Source: Candidatus Thalassarchaeaceae archaeon
GTDB taxonomy: Archaea; Thermoplasmatota; Poseidoniia; Poseidoniales; Thalassarchaeaceae
DNA length: 64,000 bases
Reading direction: 5' to 3'
Assembly: GCA_943841885.1 (NCBI GenBank)
Contig: CALSZZ010000001.1
Span: 62,001 to 126,000 of the forward strand
The notes below the pieces were generated by a model, which worked only from the letters and a program-made list of their open reading frames with translations, had not been told where the DNA came from and did no database searches. Every line of letters begins with the position of its first letter. Position 1 is the stretch's first letter. This document shows, piece after piece, positions 1-58,668 of the stretch. The position numbers and the translations under genes were made by a program.

Positions 1-528
1 GGGCAAACTCCATGTGCAATAGGAACCTATCAACCAGATGCTGGTCAAACTTCTTGCTTAGATGCAGATGCAGGATATTATGTAGATTCAACCGCTCAAA
101 CAACACAAACAGAATGTGCAGCAGGAACTTACCAAGCATCTACTGGACAATCCTCTTGCTTAGATGCAGATGCAGGATATTATGTTGATTCTACACTCGG
201 AGCAGCTCAAACATCACAAACAGCCTGTCTTGCAGGAACATACAATGCAGGTACTGGTTCTACAACTCCCAGTGATTGCTTAGATGCAGATGCAGGATAT
301 TATGTTGGATCTACCGGTCAATCTTCACAAACAGAATGTGCAGCAGGGACTTACCAAGCATCTACTGGACAATCTTCCTGTACTGATGCTTCTGCAGGAT
401 ATTATGTTCCAACAACCGGTCAAACATCACAAACAGAATGTGCAGAAGGAACATATCAACCAGATACTGGTCAAACTTCTTGTGGAAATGCAGATGCAGG
501 ATATTACATTGATGCTACTGGATCATCA
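1..528 (+). repeat. 528-bp tandem repeat, unit 1 of 3
   Basis: The unit starts with gggcaaactccatgtgc and encodes 176 residues, five cysteine-rich modules. The same sequence recurs in phase at 529 and 1057. By eye I find no substitution between the three units. The window starts exactly on a unit boundary, which suggests a contig end inside the repeat. Confidence 0.9.
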
Positions 529-1056
529 GGGCAAACTCCATGTGCAATAGGAACCTATCAACCAGATGCTGGTCAAACTTCTTGCTTAGATGCAGATGCA
601 GGATATTATGTAGATTCAACCGCTCAAACAACACAAACAGAATGTGCAGCAGGAACTTACCAAGCATCTACTGGACAATCCTCTTGCTTAGATGCAGATG
701 CAGGATATTATGTTGATTCTACACTCGGAGCAGCTCAAACATCACAAACAGCCTGTCTTGCAGGAACATACAATGCAGGTACTGGTTCTACAACTCCCAG
801 TGATTGCTTAGATGCAGATGCAGGATATTATGTTGGATCTACCGGTCAATCTTCACAAACAGAATGTGCAGCAGGGACTTACCAAGCATCTACTGGACAA
901 TCTTCCTGTACTGATGCTTCTGCAGGATATTATGTTCCAACAACCGGTCAAACATCACAAACAGAATGTGCAGAAGGAACATATCAACCAGATACTGGTC
1001 AAACTTCTTGTGGAAATGCAGATGCAGGATATTACATTGATGCTACTGGATCATCA
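529..1056 (+). repeat. 528-bp tandem repeat, unit 2 of 3
   Basis: Second copy of the 176-codon unit. It is in frame and appears identical to the unit before it, including silent positions. Confidence 0.9.
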
Positions 1057-1584
1057 GGGCAAACTCCATGTGCAATAGGAACCTATCAACCAGATGCTGG
1101 TCAAACTTCTTGCTTAGATGCAGATGCAGGATATTATGTAGATTCAACCGCTCAAACAACACAAACAGAATGTGCAGCAGGAACTTACCAAGCATCTACT
1201 GGACAATCCTCTTGCTTAGATGCAGATGCAGGATATTATGTTGATTCTACACTCGGAGCAGCTCAAACATCACAAACAGCCTGTCTTGCAGGAACATACA
1301 ATGCAGGTACTGGTTCTACAACTCCCAGTGATTGCTTAGATGCAGATGCAGGATATTATGTTGGATCTACCGGTCAATCTTCACAAACAGAATGTGCAGC
1401 AGGGACTTACCAAGCATCTACTGGACAATCTTCCTGTACTGATGCTTCTGCAGGATATTATGTTCCAACAACCGGTCAAACATCACAAACAGAATGTGCA
1501 GAAGGAACATATCAACCAGATACTGGTCAAACTTCTTGTGGAAATGCAGATGCAGGATATTACATTGATGCTACTGGATCATCA
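1057..1584 (+). repeat. 528-bp tandem repeat, unit 3 of 3 (partial fourth to about 1708)
   Basis: Third copy. A fourth begins at 1585 and follows the unit to about 1708. It then diverges (gcagcaggga instead of gcagcaggaa) into more degenerate modules that no longer keep the 528-bp period. Confidence 0.88.
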
Positions 1585-3832
1585 GGGCAAACTCCATGTG
1601 CAATAGGAACCTATCAACCAGATGCTGGTCAAACTTCTTGCTTAGATGCAGATGCAGGATATTATGTAGATTCAACCGCTCAAACAACACAAACAGAATG
1701 TGCAGCAGGGACTTACCAAGCATCTACTGGACAATCCTCTTGCTTGGATGCAGATGCAGGATATTATGTTGATTCTAATGCATCAATCACTCAAACTGAA
1801 TGCGCAATAGGAACCTATCAACCAGGCATTGGACAACTGTCTTGTATTGATGCAGATGCAGGTAATTACGTTCCAACAACTGGTCAATCCTCACAAACTG
1901 AATGTGCAGCAGGAACCTATCAACCAGATACAGGGCAGTCGTTATGTTTAGATGCAGATGCAGGATATTATGTCGATACTAATGCATCTACTAGTCAGAC
2001 AGAATGTCCAGAAGGAACATATCAATCTCTGATACTGGGCAAACTTCGTGTGGTTTTGCAGAGGCTGGATATTACATTGGATGCTACTGGATCTATCAGG
2101 GCAAACTACCATGTGCCCCAGGAACCTACCAACCAGATGCTGGTCAAACTTCTTGCTTAGATGCAGATGCAGGATATTATGTAGATTCTAACCGCATCAA
2201 TCAACTCAAACTGAATGTGCAGTAGGAACCTATCAACCAGGCATTGGACAATCGTCTTGTGATGAAGCAGATGCAGGACATTATGTTGATTCTAATGCAT
2301 CAATCACTCAAACTGAATGCGCAATAGGAACCTATCAACCAGAAACAGGACAAACATCTTGCTTAGATGCAGATGCAGGATATTATGTAGATTCAACCGC
2401 TCAAACATCACAAACTGAATGCGCAATAGGAACCTATCAACCAGAAACAGGACAAACATCTTGCTTAGATGCAGATGCAGGATATTATGCCGATACTAAT
2501 GCATCTACAAATCAGACTGCATGCCCATCAGGAACATATAATCCAAGCACAGGGGCATCAAGTGATGATGATTGTGATGATGCAGATGCAGGATATTACG
2601 TCCCTACAACCGGTCAAACATCACAAACAGAATGTGCAGCAGGGACTTACCAAGCAGATACAGGCCAGTTATCATGTGATGAAGCAGATGCAGGACATTA
2701 CGTTCCTTCAACTGCTCAAACAACACAAACTGAATGTGCAGTAGGAACCTATCAATCAGATCAGGGCAGTCGTTTGTTTAGATGCAGATGCAGGATATTA
2801 TGTGATCAATGCTACAATCAAACTGCATGTTCCCAGGAACTACCAATCCTAATGGACAATCATCCTGTTCCTGCAGATCAGGATATTATGTTGATACCAA
2901 TGCATCTACCAATCAAACTGCATGTTCTCCAGGAACATACCAATCCGTAATTGGTCAATCATCCTGTAATCCTGCAGATACAGGATATTATGTTGATACC
3001 AATGCATCTACCAATCAAACTGCATGTTCTCCAGGAACATACCAATCCGTAATTGGACAATCATCCTGTAATCCTGCAGATACAGGATATTATGTTCCAA
3101 CACTCCATCAAACGATGTCAGGAACATACAACCGTATGGCAACTCTGTAACTGCAGATCAGGATATTATGTGCTACTGATCTCAGCAAACCCATGTGCAA
3201 TAGGAACCTATCAACCAGATGCTGGTCAAACTTCTTGCTTAGATGCAGATGCAGGATATTATGTAGATTCAACCGCTCAAACAACACAAACAGAATGTGC
3301 AGCAGGAACTTACCAAGCATCTACAGGCCAGTCGTCATGTGTTAATGCAGACGCAGGATATTATGTTCCTGAGACTGGGCAATATACGCAAATAAAATGT
3401 TATGAAGGGACATACCAAATTAAGAATGGACAAACTTCGTGTGATAATGCAGATGCAGGTTATTATGTCAATACCAATGGTTCTGAAAATCAAATACCAT
3501 GTGAATTAGGAACATTCCAAAATCAGACTGGTCAAATATTCTGTATAGTTGCAGAGCCAGGATATTATGTTGATTCTAATGCATCAATCACTCAAACTGA
3601 ATGTGATGAAGGAACCTACAGTTCAAATTATGGAGCCTCGGATGCGTCTGATTGCACTAAAGATGAAGGCCTAAGACTCATTATTTTAGCACCAATTATT
3701 GCAATTATGGCATTAATTGCACTTTCAGTAACTAATTTCAGTGTAATCTCTAAAAAAGATGAAGAAGAGTAATGGCAACTACAAAAATAATACATGAGAT
3801 AATTTAGTTAAGAGTAATTATTCCACAGTCAA

Positions 3833-50219: not shown

Positions 50220-50330
50220 CCGAGCTTAGCTCAGTTGGCTAGAGCACCTGACTGTAGACTGGAAATAACAACTTCGGTTGTTGGCCAAATGGCCATCAGG
50301 GGGTCCCCGGTTCAAGTCCGGGAGCTCGGA
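50220..50330 (+). tRNA. tRNA-Tyr (GTA) with a 37-nt intron; boundary of the genomic island
   Basis: Acceptor stem CCGAGCT/AGCTCGG (C1-G72, as in archaeal tRNA-Tyr), D-stem GCTC/GAGC, anticodon stem CCTGA/TCAGG with loop C-T-G-T-A-G-A giving anticodon GTA (50254-50256), T-arm CCCGG/CCGGG, discriminator A, and encoded CCA at 50331-50333. An intron lies after position 37 (50258-50294, 37 nt), consistent with archaeal bulge-helix-bulge splicing. The 3' half overlaps the end of a tyrosine-recombinase gene on the other strand, so this is an integration target. Confidence 0.93.
50258..50294 (+). other. tRNA-Tyr intron
   Basis: 37 nucleotides, beginning actggaaata and ending ggcc, inserted one base 3' of the anticodon. 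Removing it restores a normal seven-base anticodon loop and a five-pair stem. Its centre forms a hairpin with a TTCG loop (acaac-ttcg-gttgt). Confidence 0.85.
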
Positions 50331-51579
50331 CCACCATGTCATCATCTTCATCCCAACAGGAGGGATAGATGCCTCCTCCTTTACCGTCAGAGAAGTATCC
50401 AATGTCGTATAATTGACTGTATAAATCATCGATTTTTCTATCTGTATTTCCACGTATCTGTAAGAGAGCCTCAAGTTCTTTCATACCTGCCCCCCATGCT
50501 TCCTGCCTCATTCTTTCCTTATGTTTTGAAGCGAAGTAGTACTTTGTAGTCACTTTGGGAGAGGAGTGGCCTAAGAATACAGACATCTGCTCCACCGAGG
50601 CGCCCCCCTTGCCCATCCAATCGCACCAAACTGTTCTCAGGTCGTGGAGCCTGTAGTATCCACCAGCGCTCGTCGGCTCCATCCCGATATTCTTCATCGC
50701 ACCCTTTTTTATTTCTTGAAGAGTCTTCGGGTTGATCGTCCCCCTCCCTCTCTTGTTCTCGTCCTCGCTGAATAAGAATACGGCATCCGGGTGGTTCTCT
50801 CTGCAGTATTCTAGGTAGGGCTCGACCCTCTCGAACGCCCACTCGGGCATGTTGTTGCGAACCTCCTCCGAGTACGTCCTCATCTTGCTTATTTCTCTAA
50901 TAAAGTGGTCCTCACTCACGTCTGATATCTTGATTCGCCTAATCGAGTCGGCCCTTCCAGCGCTCACGAGTGTCAGCCATATGTACGCTCTGAGAGCCAG
51001 TAGAAGGTGATGACTCGTGCGTTCGGGCCCCGCGTTCGAGGAGTTCTCGTTCGCGATTCTCGAAAGGTTCGGGGCTTCCTCCGGGTTCTCGCACATCTCG
51101 TCCAGGGACCCAATCAGGTCGACAATCTCTTTATCCTCGATACCTCTATGTTCCGCTTTCCTCTTCTTCATCCCCTTCTTGATGATGGTAACTTGAGTTT
51201 TGACTTCCTCAACTATTCGGGTATTTACTTCTCCGTATATCATCACCTTGCCAGTCAGGTAACCAAGATACCCGTCCAGCGTCGATTGCGCTAGATCGGA
51301 ACTCTCAATCTCAGTCTGTAATGACTCGATGAACTCGCTGTACTGTAGGTCGTCCCTCAAGTCGTCGGGAGTGAAGCTACCTAGGGTATACCTGAACTTC
51401 CTAGCGGATATCCTAATGTTCTTGTAGCGCTTCAGATTTCTGTCCTTCCATCTTCTAGGGCTTCTGAGCCAGATCATCACATTATCGTAAATCGAAGGTT
51501 CTCCTTGGTCCATCCCGTCGGAGACCCAGTATGGGTATTCATCTTGGCTGGCTGTATTACATGGCTGTATCTCTGGCAT
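50296..51579 (-). CDS. tyrosine recombinase (integrase) at tRNA-Tyr
   Basis: 427 residues from ATG 51579 (MPEIQPCNTA); ATG 51711 is an upstream alternative. An N-terminal SAM-like DNA-binding domain (TPDDLRDDLQYSEFIESL ... TLDGYLGYLTG) precedes the catalytic domain. Active-site residues visible are Arg in SAGRADSIRRIK, His-x-x-Arg in LHDLRTVWCDW, and Tyr in HSSPKVTTKYYF. The last codons (RAPGLEPGTP) are antisense to the tRNA-Tyr T-arm, so the gene end was fixed by insertion there. GC is clearly higher than in core genes. It belongs to an integrated element lying to the right of the tRNA. Confidence 0.88.
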   Translation of the reverse strand: MPEIQPCNTASQDEYPYWVSDGMDQGEPSIYDNVMIWLRSPRRWKDRNLKRYKNIRISARKFRYTLGSFTPDDLRDDLQYSEFIESLQTEIESSDLAQSTLDGYLGYLTGKVMIYGEVNTRIVEEVKTQVTIIKKGMKKRKAEHRGIEDKEIVDLIGSLDEMCENPEEAPNLSRIANENSSNAGPERTSHHLLLALRAYIWLTLVSAGRADSIRRIKISDVSEDHFIREISKMRTYSEEVRNNMPEWAFERVEPYLEYCRENHPDAVFLFSEDENKRGRGTINPKTLQEIKKGAMKNIGMEPTSAGGYYRLHDLRTVWCDWMGKGGASVEQMSVFLGHSSPKVTTKYYFASKHKERMRQEAWGAGMKELEALLQIRGNTDRKIDDLYSQLYDIGYFSDGKGGGIYPSCWDEDDDMVVRAPGLEPGTP

Positions 51580-51738
51580 GGAATATAGGAAGCGAAGACG
51601 AAGGTATGAAAGGTTATGGCTAGTACTATGATGCAGAGTTTGAACATGAATACCTATTGCTTCAAACGACAATGTCGTTGGGGATCTCATATCTCCAAGG
51701 AATGACTTCAATAGCCTCCGATTTCAGAGTATAACTCC

Positions 51739-53978: not shown

Positions 53979-54000
53979 AAACATAGCACCGTCTACTCGT

Positions 54001-54056
54001 TTTCGGATAGATACAAAGGGTTCAGCTGAAACCCCTTTGAATTTTATTTTCCGAAA
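54001..54056. repeat. nested inverted repeat after the membrane-protein gene
   Basis: Outer arms tttcgg (54001-54006) / ccgaaa (54051-54056), inner arms caaaggg (54014-54020) / ccctttg (54033-54039), and the perfect palindrome ttcagctgaa (54021-54030) at the centre. Possibly a terminator, protein-binding site or recombination site. Confidence 0.5.
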
Positions 54057-54070
54057 CAAAGAGGATTCAA

Positions 54071-54089
54071 TGGGTCGAATCACTCGCTA
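54071..54089 (+). repeat. 19-bp direct repeat, left flank of the giant island gene
   Basis: tgggtcgaatcactcgcta; the near-identical tgggtcgaatcattcgcta lies at 58505-58523, one mismatch. The pair brackets the high-GC gene and may mark the ends of a mobile cassette or a past duplication. Confidence 0.55.
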
Positions 54090-54091
54090 CC

Positions 54092-54154
54092 CTCTGACGC
54101 GCATACGCTTCAGAGCCCCACTACAGAACCCTCTGATCTCTATGCCGGTCAGAG
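54092..54154 (+). repeat. two tandem 24-nt hairpins with the same stem
   Basis: ctctga ... tcagag occurs at 54092-54115 and again at 54131-54154, each with a 12-nt loop. They sit just upstream of the GTG start of the giant gene, so may act in its leader or as recombination sites. Confidence 0.5.
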
Positions 54155-54201
54155 CGGCTGAGTAGGTCAAGTCAATAAACCAATAATCCGTGGGCTAGCA
54201 C

Positions 54202-57200
54202 GTGAAGATTAACCGGGGTAGTAAGGGAATAAGGACGGAGTCGAACGTCGTGGGGGCCATTGCCTTGGCCTTCCTGATGGTAGCCATGGCCCAGGTCGGG
54301 TACGCAGGGGGGGATCAGCGGGACTCCCTCGATGCCGAGCGAGCCGGCCACACCGGGACGATCACCTCGAATGTCGAGGGCGCGGAGCTGCAACTCGGCG
54401 AGGCGATGACGCCGATCACGCTCAACACGCCACAACCTGCCTCGTGGAGTACCGAACCCGCTCTGCCTGCCGGCCTGAGCATCTCGAGAGGCACCATCAG
54501 CGGCACGCCCTCGGTCTACGCCAGCAACCAGACCTACACGATACATGCGGAGCAGGGAGGAGAGGCAACCACCTTCGAGATCTACCTCAGCGTGGGCTCG
54601 GACAACCCGCACACCGTGGTGGAGAATCAGCCGATCGATGCGATCGGCTTCCACGACCCCTTCCAGGATGGGACCACGACCTGGGCCGTATCACCGTCCC
54701 TGCCGTCCGACCTCACGATGGACCCGGCCACGGGGGAGATCACGGGGTCCGTCGAGGGAGAGCTACCCAACACCACCTACACAATGACCGCGACGGAGGT
54801 CATCCCGACCTCGTCATCCGCCTATGCGAACAACAAGGTGTCTGCCGGATGGTACCACAACTGCGCCATCCTCGACGACGGCGACCTGAAGTGCTGGGGG
54901 CGGGACAACCACGGACAGTTGGGCGATGGTGGAAGCAACACCAACACCAACGCTCCCTCATCCACAGCGATCGACCTCGGTTCGGGCCGAACGGCCATTG
55001 CTGTGTCAGCTGGAGATTATCACACCTGTGCCATCCTCGACAACGGCGATGCGAAGTGCTGGGGGAAGGACAGCCATGGACAGTTGGGCGATGGCGGAAG
55101 CAACACTGACACCACCGCACCCTCATCCACAGCGATCGACCTCGGCACGGGCCGAACGGCCGTTGCGGTGTCTGCTGGAAGTCGCCACACCTGCGCCATC
55201 CTCGACAACGGCGATGCGAAGTGCTGGGGGCAGGACAGCTATGGACAGTTGGGCGATGGCGGAAGCAACACGGACACCAACGCACCCTCATCCACAGCGA
55301 TCGACCTCGGCACGGGCCGAACGGCCGTTGCGGTGTCTGCCGGATGGTCCGACACCTGCGCCATCCTCGACAACGGCGACCTGAAGTGCTGGGGGCGGGA
55401 CAACTTCGGACAGTTGGGCGACGGTGGAAGCAACACGGACACCGACGCACCCTCATCCACAGCGATCGACCTCGGTTCGGGCCGAACGGCCATTGCTGTG
55501 TCAGCTGGAGATTATCACACCTGTGCCATCCTCGACAACGGCGATGCGAAGTGCTGGGGGAAGGACAGCCATGGACAGTTGGGCGATGGTGGAAGCAACA
55601 CGGACACCAACGCACCCTCATCCACAGCGATCGACCTCGGCACGGGCCGAACGGCCGTTGCGGTGTCGGCTGGATGGTACCACAACTGCGCCATCCTCGA
55701 CAACGGCGATGCGAAGTGCTGGGGGCAGGACAGCTATGGACAGTTGGGCGATGGCGGAAGCAACACTGACACCACCGCACCCTCATCCACAGCGATCGAC
55801 CTCGGCACGGGCCGAACGACCGTTGCGATGTCAGCCAGAGGTGACCACGCCTGCGCCATCCTCGACGACGGCGACCTGAAGTGCTGGGGGCAGGACAGCT
55901 ATGGACAGTTGGGCGATGGTGGGACCAACACCGACCAAGGTTCACCCGTTTCGGTTTCCGGCAGCAACACCTGGGATTCCTCGACCGGGCCGAGCAGCGG
56001 TTCAGGCAGCGGAGCTTCGAGTTCCCCGTCCTCCGAGGACATCCACTTCAGACTGGTCAGCCTCGCTGACTCGGACGGGGACGGCCTTCCGGACGAGCTG
56101 CCAGGCGACTACGACCCGATGGAGGGCCCGACCCCCGGACTCGTCGCAGACGATGACGACGACAACGACGGCCTCCCGGACCTGGAGGAGAGTGCCACGG
56201 GCACAGACTCCACCAACCCGGACACGGACGGCGACGGATACTGTGACGGGCCGACAGCGGTCGCAGGCGTCTGCCAGACTGGCCCGGACGCCTTCCCCCT
56301 CGACCCTGCGGAGTGGCTGGACACCGACGGCGACGGGATCGGCAACGAGGCCGACACGGACGACGACAACGACGGCCTCCCGGACCTGGAGGAGAGTGCC
56401 ACGGGCACAGACTCCACCAACACGGACACGGACGGCGACGGGTACTGCGACGGCGCGGAGGCCGTGACCGGCGTCTGCGAGGCAGGCCCCGACGCCTTCC
56501 CGACCGACCCGTCCGCCCACGCGGACACCGACGGCGACGGCATGCCGGACACGATCACCGGGACCTCCACATCCGTCCCGGCCCTCGTCGAGGACACGGA
56601 CGACGACGGCGACGGGCTCGAGGACGCGAGCGAGACCGATACCGGGACATACGTCGATGGCTCGGACACGGGAACGGACCCACTGAACCCCGACACCGAC
56701 TCGGACGGGATCTGCGACGGTCCCAACGCCGTCCCGCCGATATGCCTGGCAGGACCGGACGACGACCCTCACGGGTCGAACTTCGGCGGAAGCTTCTACG
56801 GATTGAGGAACTCACAGACAGACGAATTCCAACCGGCCGGTATAGCAGCACCCGGAACGACCTACGAGGTGTATCCCGGACTCCCAACGGAGATGACTCT
56901 GGATACAGCAACCGGTACGATCAGCGGAACGCCGACAGAGCAGATGGGGAACACGACGTTCAACCTCTGGGCGAACCAGACAGACGGGACTTCAGTCAGG
57001 ACGACCTTCCTGTTCGAGGTCTTGGAAGACACCGACGGCGACGGGATGCCCGACGTGCTGCCTGACTACTATGATTCCACGACAGGGGCATTCGTCGAGG
57101 ACGATGACGACGACGACGACGGCATCACGGACGCCGACGAGAGGGAAGCGGGCACCGATCCGCTGGACCCAGACACTGACGGCGACGGGGTATGCGACGG

Positions 57201-58473
57201 GCCGGTGTCACCGGCGAACAGCGATTGCACTGTAATAACTGATGATGAGAATGATGGCGGTGATGGAGGATCTAGTAACATGTGGTGCTTCTGCTGCCTG
57301 ATTTTCCTTCTACTGCTACTATTGGCACTGTTGATCGGACGTGACAAAGTAATGGGCATAGTACTAGTTGGCCCTGAGCCAGAGAACACGTCATCAGAAC
57401 CTCAGTTTATCGATGGTACGGGCACCAAGGAAGATCCGTTCGTCCTTGCTACTGCTGAAGGAGTGAAACCTGGTGAATCGGTAATTAGCAAAGAAACAAT
57501 CACGATCAACAACATGTCGAAGATTAATGTGGATATGATCGACTTTAACCAGGAAACAAACAGCAATCGCTTCGGAATGCGTGAGAAGAATAACAATAAA
57601 TCCGCTACAAGAGTTATCGCCGTTAACGATAATGGAGAGATTATGATCAATATGGTTTTTGATGATAACACTGATGGTCCGACTTACGAAGGAGGAGAAT
57701 TCATTGGGTTACTAAAGCTCGGACGAGCAAGTGTATATATTTCTTGGACGGTCAATGTAAAACCCGATAAGAAAAAACTTAAGGAGATACAGAAGCAAAG
57801 AGAAGCTGACGAAAAGGCCGCTAAGTTGGCCAATGAGGAAGCCACTGCCATTGCTCTGCTTGCTAAGGAAGAACAAGAGAAAGCTGCCAAGAAGGCCGAA
57901 GACGAGGCTGCAGCCGCGACCTTGCTCGCCAAGGAAGAGGAAGAGAAGGCCGCCGAGAAGGCAGCCGCATCCAAATCCTCCAGCAACGAGGAGAAGAAGC
58001 TAGAGGAGTTACAAAGAGTGAGGGAGCGAGCGAGCTCCATCAATTTCGAGACCCTAGGCAAGGCATCTTCTACGGAGCTGAAGAGCGCCGTCGAAGAGGG
58101 CGCTGATACCTTAGAGGTCGCGAGTACATCCGACTTCGCCGACAGCGGCTCCGCGAGAATCAGCGACTCCGCTGGCACATCGGTCATCACCTGGACTGGG
58201 AAGAACAGAAACGTACTGACCGGCGTCTCGGGAGTGACCAGAACATTCGCCGCCGCCTCGATAGTCCTAGTCAAGGACGACCTGCAGGTGATAAAGGGCA
58301 TCGGACCGTTCCTGGAGGAGAAGCTTAACGCCCTCGGAATCTACACGTTCTTGCAGATTAGCAAGATGACGCCTGAGATAGAGGAGGAAGTCAACGTAGC
58401 CATCGAATTCTTCCCCGGTCGCGTCAAGAGGGACGAGTGGGCCAAGCAGGCTGGCGAGCTTCTTCGGGATTGA
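54202..58473 (+). CDS. giant surface protein: Ig-like, seven RCC1 repeats, thrombospondin-3 repeats, membrane helix, cytoplasmic coiled coil and HhH
   Basis: 1423 residues, GTG start. A signal-peptide-like N terminus (residues ~14-35) precedes two He_PIG/Ig-like domains (~40-205; LPAGLSISRGTISGTP). Seven 55-residue RCC1 units (~214-590; C-A-I-L-D-x-G-D-x-K-C-W-G, GQLGDGG) predict one seven-bladed propeller. Asp-rich TSP3 calcium repeats (DTDGDGxxD) and another Ig-like unit fill ~610-1010. A membrane helix is near 1028-1048 (CFCCLIFLLLLLLALLI). The inside half has a beta domain, an Ala/Glu/Lys coiled coil (~1190-1275) and a C-terminal helix-hairpin-helix (VIKGIGPFLEEKLNALGIYT, ~1363). Most of it is far higher in GC than the chromosome. 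Confidence 0.88.
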   Translation: MKINRGSKGIRTESNVVGAIALAFLMVAMAQVGYAGGDQRDSLDAERAGHTGTITSNVEGAELQLGEAMTPITLNTPQPASWSTEPALPAGLSISRGTISGTPSVYASNQTYTIHAEQGGEATTFEIYLSVGSDNPHTVVENQPIDAIGFHDPFQDGTTTWAVSPSLPSDLTMDPATGEITGSVEGELPNTTYTMTATEVIPTSSSAYANNKVSAGWYHNCAILDDGDLKCWGRDNHGQLGDGGSNTNTNAPSSTAIDLGSGRTAIAVSAGDYHTCAILDNGDAKCWGKDSHGQLGDGGSNTDTTAPSSTAIDLGTGRTAVAVSAGSRHTCAILDNGDAKCWGQDSYGQLGDGGSNTDTNAPSSTAIDLGTGRTAVAVSAGWSDTCAILDNGDLKCWGRDNFGQLGDGGSNTDTDAPSSTAIDLGSGRTAIAVSAGDYHTCAILDNGDAKCWGKDSHGQLGDGGSNTDTNAPSSTAIDLGTGRTAVAVSAGWYHNCAILDNGDAKCWGQDSYGQLGDGGSNTDTTAPSSTAIDLGTGRTTVAMSARGDHACAILDDGDLKCWGQDSYGQLGDGGTNTDQGSPVSVSGSNTWDSSTGPSSGSGSGASSSPSSEDIHFRLVSLADSDGDGLPDELPGDYDPMEGPTPGLVADDDDDNDGLPDLEESATGTDSTNPDTDGDGYCDGPTAVAGVCQTGPDAFPLDPAEWLDTDGDGIGNEADTDDDNDGLPDLEESATGTDSTNTDTDGDGYCDGAEAVTGVCEAGPDAFPTDPSAHADTDGDGMPDTITGTSTSVPALVEDTDDDGDGLEDASETDTGTYVDGSDTGTDPLNPDTDSDGICDGPNAVPPICLAGPDDDPHGSNFGGSFYGLRNSQTDEFQPAGIAAPGTTYEVYPGLPTEMTLDTATGTISGTPTEQMGNTTFNLWANQTDGTSVRTTFLFEVLEDTDGDGMPDVLPDYYDSTTGAFVEDDDDDDDGITDADEREAGTDPLDPDTDGDGVCDGPVSPANSDCTVITDDENDGGDGGSSNMWCFCCLIFLLLLLLALLIGRDKVMGIVLVGPEPENTSSEPQFIDGTGTKEDPFVLATAEGVKPGESVISKETITINNMSKINVDMIDFNQETNSNRFGMREKNNNKSATRVIAVNDNGEIMINMVFDDNTDGPTYEGGEFIGLLKLGRASVYISWTVNVKPDKKKLKEIQKQREADEKAAKLANEEATAIALLAKEEQEKAAKKAEDEAAAATLLAKEEEEKAAEKAAASKSSSNEEKKLEELQRVRERASSINFETLGKASSTELKSAVEEGADTLEVASTSDFADSGSARISDSAGTSVITWTGKNRNVLTGVSGVTRTFAAASIVLVKDDLQVIKGIGPFLEEKLNALGIYTFLQISKMTPEIEEEVNVAIEFFPGRVKRDEWAKQAGELLRD
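54841..55960 (+). repeat. seven 165-bp RCC1 DNA repeats
   Basis: The 55-codon unit recurs seven times. Units 2 and 5, and 1 and 6, share their variable residues (DYHT and WYHN). Blocks 495 bp (three units) apart, for example around 54975 and 55470, are nearly identical, indicating internal duplication or gene conversion. Confidence 0.88.
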
Positions 58474-58504
58474 GAGATCTAGAGATTCCTCGGACGGCTA
58501 GCAG

Positions 58505-58523
58505 TGGGTCGAATCATTCGCTA
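58505..58523 (+). repeat. 19-bp direct repeat, right flank of the giant island gene
   Basis: tgggtcgaatcattcgcta, partner of 54071-54089. Here it runs into the 14-bp palindrome at 58516-58529. Confidence 0.55.
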
Positions 58524-58638
58524 GCGAATTCTAAAACTATAGCGCCCCCCTTTGCTTATTTGGAATAATTAATGGGCTACAGTATCAACCCCAATGGTTC
58601 GGAGTTTACCATAGTAACCGATGTACTGCAATACAGCG

Positions 58639-58668
58639 GATTCGCTACCCTATGCTTCAGGGTGAATC
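58639..58668. repeat. inverted repeat resembling the left-flank sequence
   Basis: gattc-gct-accct / agggt-gaatc arms around atgcttc. The stretch tcgctaccct plus a gcttcag element also occurs at 54083-54113, so left and right flanks share a second sequence element. Confidence 0.45.

Follow-up and report, generated by a model that had tools for sequence, protein, structure and literature searches.

Structured repeats beside a giant gene in a Poseidoniales archaeon as probable ends of mobile gene cassettes

The attC core, at which integron cassettes cross over, is GTTRRRY, and the usual enzyme of mobile insertion cassettes and passenger-carrying insertion sequences is a transposase, not a serine recombinase. 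The Poseidoniales, an archaeal group abundant in the surface ocean, have been studied chiefly through metagenome assemblies and single cells. Nothing that describes the cassette system set out below was found in the open-access full texts searched. The DNA analysed here (the window) is a 64-kb stretch from a Poseidoniales genome of 1.49 Mb in six contigs, which is 80% complete. A preliminary description had noted repeats and palindromes on both sides of a giant gene and proposed that the gene is a discrete cassette moved by site-specific recombination. We consider it probable that the Poseidoniales possess mobile gene cassettes, that the repeats serve as their recombination ends and that the giant gene sits in such a unit. 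The features of the locus, in which E3 and E5 denote the two kinds of unit end, are as follows.

54006..54089, + strand, E3 end of the left-hand unit, about 84 nt (E3 profile, 52.5 bits at 54010-54089; match to sequence model R1 at 53998-54096; alignment)
54071..54089, + strand, first copy of the 19-mer, forming the last 19 bases of the E3 of the left unit (alignment)
54088..54089, no strand, TA centre of the left junction of the giant-gene unit, placed from junctions in relatives at CGC-TA-CCC
54088..54137, + strand, weak, degenerate E5 (TACCCTCTGAC..), left end of the giant-gene unit, holding the hairpin near 54092
54202..58473, + strand, giant open reading frame of 1423 aa, G+C 0.61
58491..58523, + strand, truncated E3 closing the giant-gene unit (21.6 bits with the E3 profile, covering its positions 50-82 of 82)
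58505..58523, + strand, second copy of the 19-mer, within the truncated E3, with TA at 58522-58523
58524..58645, + strand, repeat B, a short MITE-like element without coding sequence, bounded by TA, with TA following at 58646

The 19-mer, TGGGTCGAATCA[C/T]TCGCTA, occurs as previously described at 54071 and 58505, on the same strand and with one mismatch, and there is no third copy in the 64-kb window at up to 4 mismatches. Lengthened, it becomes a 22-nt pair with 91% identity. For the 19-mer pair the chance expectation is 0.43 in 64 kb and 0.004 in a 6.2-kb stretch; taken alone within 64 kb the pair is not decisive, a chance origin not being rare. The repeat is considered real because its own genome holds three forward and no reverse copies at up to 3 mismatches, against none for a backward-read control, and because relatives carry a homologous element family. 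The second common element, CGCTACCCT, was also recovered, at 54085 and 58643. Folding as single-stranded DNA, compared with shuffled sequence, bore out three of the hairpins in the preliminary description, those at 54092 (z-score -4.4) and 58639 (-3.1) being strong and that at 54001 (-2.2) moderate, but 54131 (-1.0) and 58516 (-0.6) are at the shuffled level.

The 19-mer is the terminus of E3, a structured element of about 80 bp that is intergenic and dispersed in Poseidoniales (Marine Group II). R1, a sequence model built from 13 E3 copies including two from the window, has 228 matches in 44 of 59 genomes, with 0 to 18 per genome. The 19-mer itself, at up to 2 mismatches, is found at 17 places in 12 of the 59; five of these places (L018, L023, L026, L027 and L030) have the 19-mer without the arms and look like chance. 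Aligned copies have in common the left arm and the core CAGTGGGYC-N8-CGCTA and diverge thereafter, and the copies are palindromic and mosaic. The exact motif GGGN4CAGTGGGYCN8CGCTACCC is present in at least 119 genome stretches and, among the matches listed, 118 of 119 are titled Poseidoniales, Marine Group II, 'Euryarchaeota archaeon' or 'uncultured euryarchaeote', the other being a Bifidobacteriaceae contig that lacks the arms and was taken as chance. Judged by these titles, the window too would belong to Poseidoniales. Exact sites are concentrated near contig ends, with 59 of 125 among the matches listed lying less than 600 bp from one (11.6 expected). The arms appear to covary as inverted repeats in two alternative helices, each with a covariation score above all 500 shuffles; the helices were named by hand, use one arm in common and are thus mutually exclusive, and their score still includes kinship. 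Unguided RNAalifold gave only 4 nearly invariant pairs. The repeat is common in the order, yet its copies are sited at unit borders, and the refuting condition named in the preliminary description, a frequent repeat with no relation to gene borders, thus came out in favour of the cassette proposal.

Discrete DNA units have E3 at one end and E5 at the other, and E5 starts with TACC[CG], followed by a G-rich and then a C-rich stretch. E5 was spotted at the start of several common blocks, outward from the junctions. Identity of 95-98% between genomes breaks off at the core end CTACCC, on the left side in the pairs L040/L118 and L037/L043 and on the other side in L109/L110. In a survey of homology breaks covering 200 sites (156 non-redundant loci), 12 of the 14 pairs homologous on the left only stop 3-7 nt past CTA and the other two at -52 and -13, these pairs being partly dependent (two groups of three). 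Homology confined to the right side was seen in three pairs, where it sets in 21-28 nt to the left of the centre and so is less sharply bounded than in the left-only pairs; one pair is homologous on both sides. In relatives, homology ends and unit junctions fall at the centre CGC-TA-CCC.

Across 168 loci, profiles of both ends identified 203 copies of E3 and 111 of E5. Of the 79 intervals between ends, 73 are bounded by one of each kind, a figure that is partly circular because the E5 training sequences were drawn from upstream of E3. For this reason the pairing was retested on the 59 E5 ends outside the training set. No further end was reached before the locus stopped in 30, whereas the remaining 29 were followed by E3 (23 cases), an opening end (4) or another E5 (2). 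Units are 349-4535 bp long (median 883) and, with two overlapping intervals at L186 both counted, 71 of 73 contain an open reading frame of at least 60 aa and 59 exactly one, although a single gene in 0.9 kb carries no weight of its own where genes are densely packed. The 71 largest frames fall into 54 families. When 70 proteins were scanned, the families matched, each in 1-3 proteins, included resolvase, RDD, HNH, treble-clef, TSP3, acyltransferase, collagenase-type peptidase and DUF families, and matches to a defence library were few and weak. A unit of standard size (0.9 kb) is present in the genome of the window itself (L061:8080-8964, G000:C1), with E5, a two-sided E3 and one 241-aa frame.

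The same unit can occupy different places. One of 1042 bp was found in three genomes at different positions (L163, L167 and L219; 97.9-99.7% identical), and an identical 458-bp unit lies at two places of one assembly (L158 and L196). Of 259 centres, 55 could be assigned an end on either side, comprising 35 E3-TA-E5 tandem, 13 E5-E5 and 7 E3-E3 junctions, and the palindromic TA is common to all three kinds. This constancy is partly built in because each unit end was placed on the closest TA, a shift of at most 3 nt; TA at the centre is also visible in printed alignments made without the shifting step. Its presence at all three kinds of junction would suit a serine recombinase that exchanges an overlap of two bases. 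Units are flanked on the right by CCC in 53 of 69 cases and on the left by GGG or CGC in 44 of 69, the flank nearly always being another half-site. Paired flanks do not clearly make up the two halves of a single palindromic target (z 2.4 for positions 6-16 and -0.4 for positions 1-5). A search for empty sites in the collected loci returned 23 matches, all of them the unit's own contig present twice. With these self matches only, the loci yielded neither excision products nor circles, nor any site proven to be empty. We are highly confident that the cassette family is real.

A serine recombinase of about 262 residues is carried within complete units at L166 (two in a row, isolate AH-273-O19), L266 and L267, and adjoins E3 at L108, L268, L269 and, weakly, L265. 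PF00239 and part of PF07508 were found in 4 of 4, and RVSS and DRxFR, which we take to be marks of the serine recombinase catalytic domain, are invariant. The 59 genomes gave 13 matches, from 9 genomes, of which the 6 strongest have E3 ends nearby and the 7 weakest have none (Fisher 0.0006). Genomes with a match have a mean of 9.9 sites and those without have 2.8, and identical E5 and E3 profiles bound recombinase-carrying and other units. A search of the window's own genome found no recombinase of this kind. As sites are present in 44 of the 59 genomes and the recombinase in 9, the enzyme may come and go, may have been missed in incomplete genomes or may have company. Its best curated matches are CcrB and XisF, but it reaches only 87.5 bits against the CcrB model (cut-off 900), is below the cut-off for each of CcrA, CcrB and CcrC, and scores 29.1 bits with the IS607 transposase model (cut-off 110). 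The predicted fold (mean pLDDT 64.5) was too weak for a structure search. Judged from sequence, this recombinase is quite likely to be the cassette enzyme.

Other carriers and enzymes were considered. Carriage by viruses was rejected, the core pattern being found in no viral contig and the viral relatives of the recombinase (4 loci) being 27-38% identical; plasmid relatives (4 records) are 34-37% identical. Loci L270-L276 hold related serine recombinases at a greater distance, several of which are broken or fragmentary, with no E3 or E5 nearby. The tyrosine integrase to the right of the giant gene, P0001 (58794-59978), was ruled out as the cassette recombinase, as it occurs in only 5 of the 59 genomes; its protein is 100% identical in G002, a genome of the same genus.

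P0001 and a second tyrosine integrase gene (50220-51711) face each other across 9.6 kb, and each overlaps a tRNA gene at its 3' end. One of these tRNAs is intron-bearing (tyrosine, read from the anticodon GTA) and the other is tRNA-Ala. The only 12-nt tRNA-end match elsewhere in the window is at an unrelated place, 19682, and tRNA attachment was set aside as a candidate. Repeat B, next to the giant-gene unit, has 5 matches in its own genome, is found in 6 of the 59 genomes, all of one genus, and is often at contig ends.

The predicted giant protein has putative Ig domains, RCC1 repeats, TSP3 repeats and, as read from the sequence, a hydrophobic (membrane-like) stretch, and its C-terminal segment is common to other giant proteins. 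The part encoded at 58279-58470 (residues 339-402 of the C-terminal query) is found again, with identities of about 56-87%, at the ends of many giant proteins from across the order, in some of them as consecutive copies. At the start of the window, positions 1-3600 contain a long tandem-repeat stretch with stepwise, many-fold matches to the neighbouring part of the contig, and RCC1-type frames interrupted by TGA stops lie nearby.

The G+C of the giant gene is 0.61, compared with 0.37 for its surroundings and the window and 0.36-0.43 for homologues in the genome, and the step in composition sits at both TA centres (54088 and 58522), away from the tRNA genes. A near full-length relative with a G+C of 0.60 was found in another genus of the family. 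The E5 of this unit was missed by the E5 profile HMM and scores 3.3, against a training minimum of 12.7. It is the top score among the 105 TACC[CG] positions of the window, so that the best E5-like site falls exactly on the predicted TA. In G002 the tail of the left neighbour and a degenerate core run into an inverted repeat B and the giant gene is absent, an arrangement that is suggestive, although the neighbouring gene is a fragment there. None of 14 regions around giant-gene homologues in relatives had E3 or E5, hence the giant-gene family as such is not cassette-borne; in a set of 20 homologue loci, most of which stopped short of the gene ends, the sole match was the window's own locus. 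On balance, the giant gene is probably an unusually large, foreign member of the cassette family, captured from a lineage of higher G+C and partly decayed since. One of its ends is weak, the other is truncated and no empty site was found, and its own movement as a cassette is inferred.

The main alternative for the giant gene is that it arrived with a tRNA-linked tyrosine-integrase island, or stands beside cassette ends by chance, rather than as a cassette. The two integrases over tRNA 3' ends (50.2-51.7 kb and 58.8-60.0 kb), the restricted occurrence of P0001 together with its identity in G002, and the homologues that have neither E3 nor E5 would all agree with this. However, no copy of a tRNA end of at least 12 nt lies at element borders elsewhere in the window, and the composition step is at the TA centres and not at the tRNA genes. 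We regard this alternative as the less likely one for the gene, though a serious one.

A second possibility concerns the whole family, which might be an insertion-sequence family that duplicates TA on insertion and has non-autonomous forms carrying passenger genes, as in mobile insertion cassettes, with the serine recombinase or an unseen transposase as its enzyme. TA is indeed found at both ends of units, and non-coding and gene-carrying forms occur next to recombinase-carrying ones. Against this, units are stacked end to end and are nearly always flanked by another half-site, a pattern more like recombination between ends already present than insertion at a free TA. This version is unlikely, although the difference from the cassette explanation is partly one of name.

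Somewhat less probable again is a passive role for the elements, as mosaic palindromes between genes comparable to the REP/BIME or MITE sequences of bacteria, with the genes as bystanders and the mosaics formed by ordinary homologous recombination. The intergenic, palindromic and mosaic nature of the elements and the short, non-coding repeat B would be in keeping with this, and where genes are densely packed, intergenic points separated by 0.9 kb will enclose about one gene in any case. However, common blocks take in whole genes and end at one fixed point of the element, units have two different ends, and the REP-type Y1 transposase (PF01797) was found in none of the 59 genomes, the search being positive in 5 of 14 control genomes. 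A canonical integron with IntI and attC sites, despite the arrays of mostly single-gene units with structured sites, can be dismissed almost entirely, as no IntI (TIGR02249) exceeds the cut-off in the 59 genomes (weak matches are ordinary tyrosine recombinases, likewise found in 14 of 14 control genomes), the centre is CGC-TA-CCC and not the attC core, and cargo genes lie in either orientation (40 same, 31 opposite).

For the preferred reading, in which the repeats are cassette ends, the layout of a cassette would be [TA]CCC..E5..gene..E3..CGC[TA]. The recombinase, which some cassettes encode and which would serve the others in trans, would pair two ends and swap strands at the central TA, possibly by way of a circular intermediate. 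Cassettes could thereby be excised, inserted, inverted or stacked, the targets being existing ends or sites resembling GGG-TA-CCC. The giant gene, within a 4.4-kb unit (54088-58523), would have been taken from a lineage of higher G+C and have moved likewise before partial decay. The earlier proposal of a cassette with structured recombination sites is thus upheld for the repeat family, with its two-ended, mostly single-gene units, different contexts and sharp junctions, whereas for the giant gene itself movement is presumed.

If this reading is correct, the system would provide a mechanism for the flexible gene content of Poseidoniales and would help to explain breaks in their assemblies, exact sites being enriched near contig ends. 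It would also mean that capture of genes in the manner of cassettes can rely on a serine recombinase where integrons use a tyrosine integrase. The small enzyme and its defined ends should offer a directly testable system.

Several known systems share parts of this design. REP/BIME and MITE sequences are likewise mosaic intergenic palindromes, and repeat B is MITE-like, but the 59 genomes contain no Y1 transposase, and the ends described here enclose genes and recur along with them. IS607-type transposons and the staphylococcal Ccr system also use a serine recombinase; the Poseidoniales enzyme is far under the cut-offs for both, is only about 262 residues long and has a partial Recombinase domain. 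Mobile insertion cassettes and passenger-carrying insertion sequences are alike in having a passenger gene between ends that can be used by an enzyme coded elsewhere, and in having non-autonomous units with the same ends as autonomous ones. They differ from the Poseidoniales units, which have a serine recombinase, end-to-end stacking and dozens of cargo families.

The likening to integrons in the preliminary description stands for the cassette design but not for the machinery. Integron cassettes, including archaeal ones (PMC9668308), are similar in forming arrays of mostly single-gene units with structured sites and varied cargo. They differ in that the Poseidoniales units are without IntI, have another crossover motif and two unlike ends, are linked to a serine and not a tyrosine recombinase, have no fixed cargo orientation and show no platform. 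There is about an even chance that the Poseidoniales have their own serine-recombinase counterpart of the integron, in which a trans-acting enzyme that is itself a cassette, with structured ends at TA and no fixed platform, captures and shuffles single genes and, occasionally, giant surface-protein genes of other lineages.
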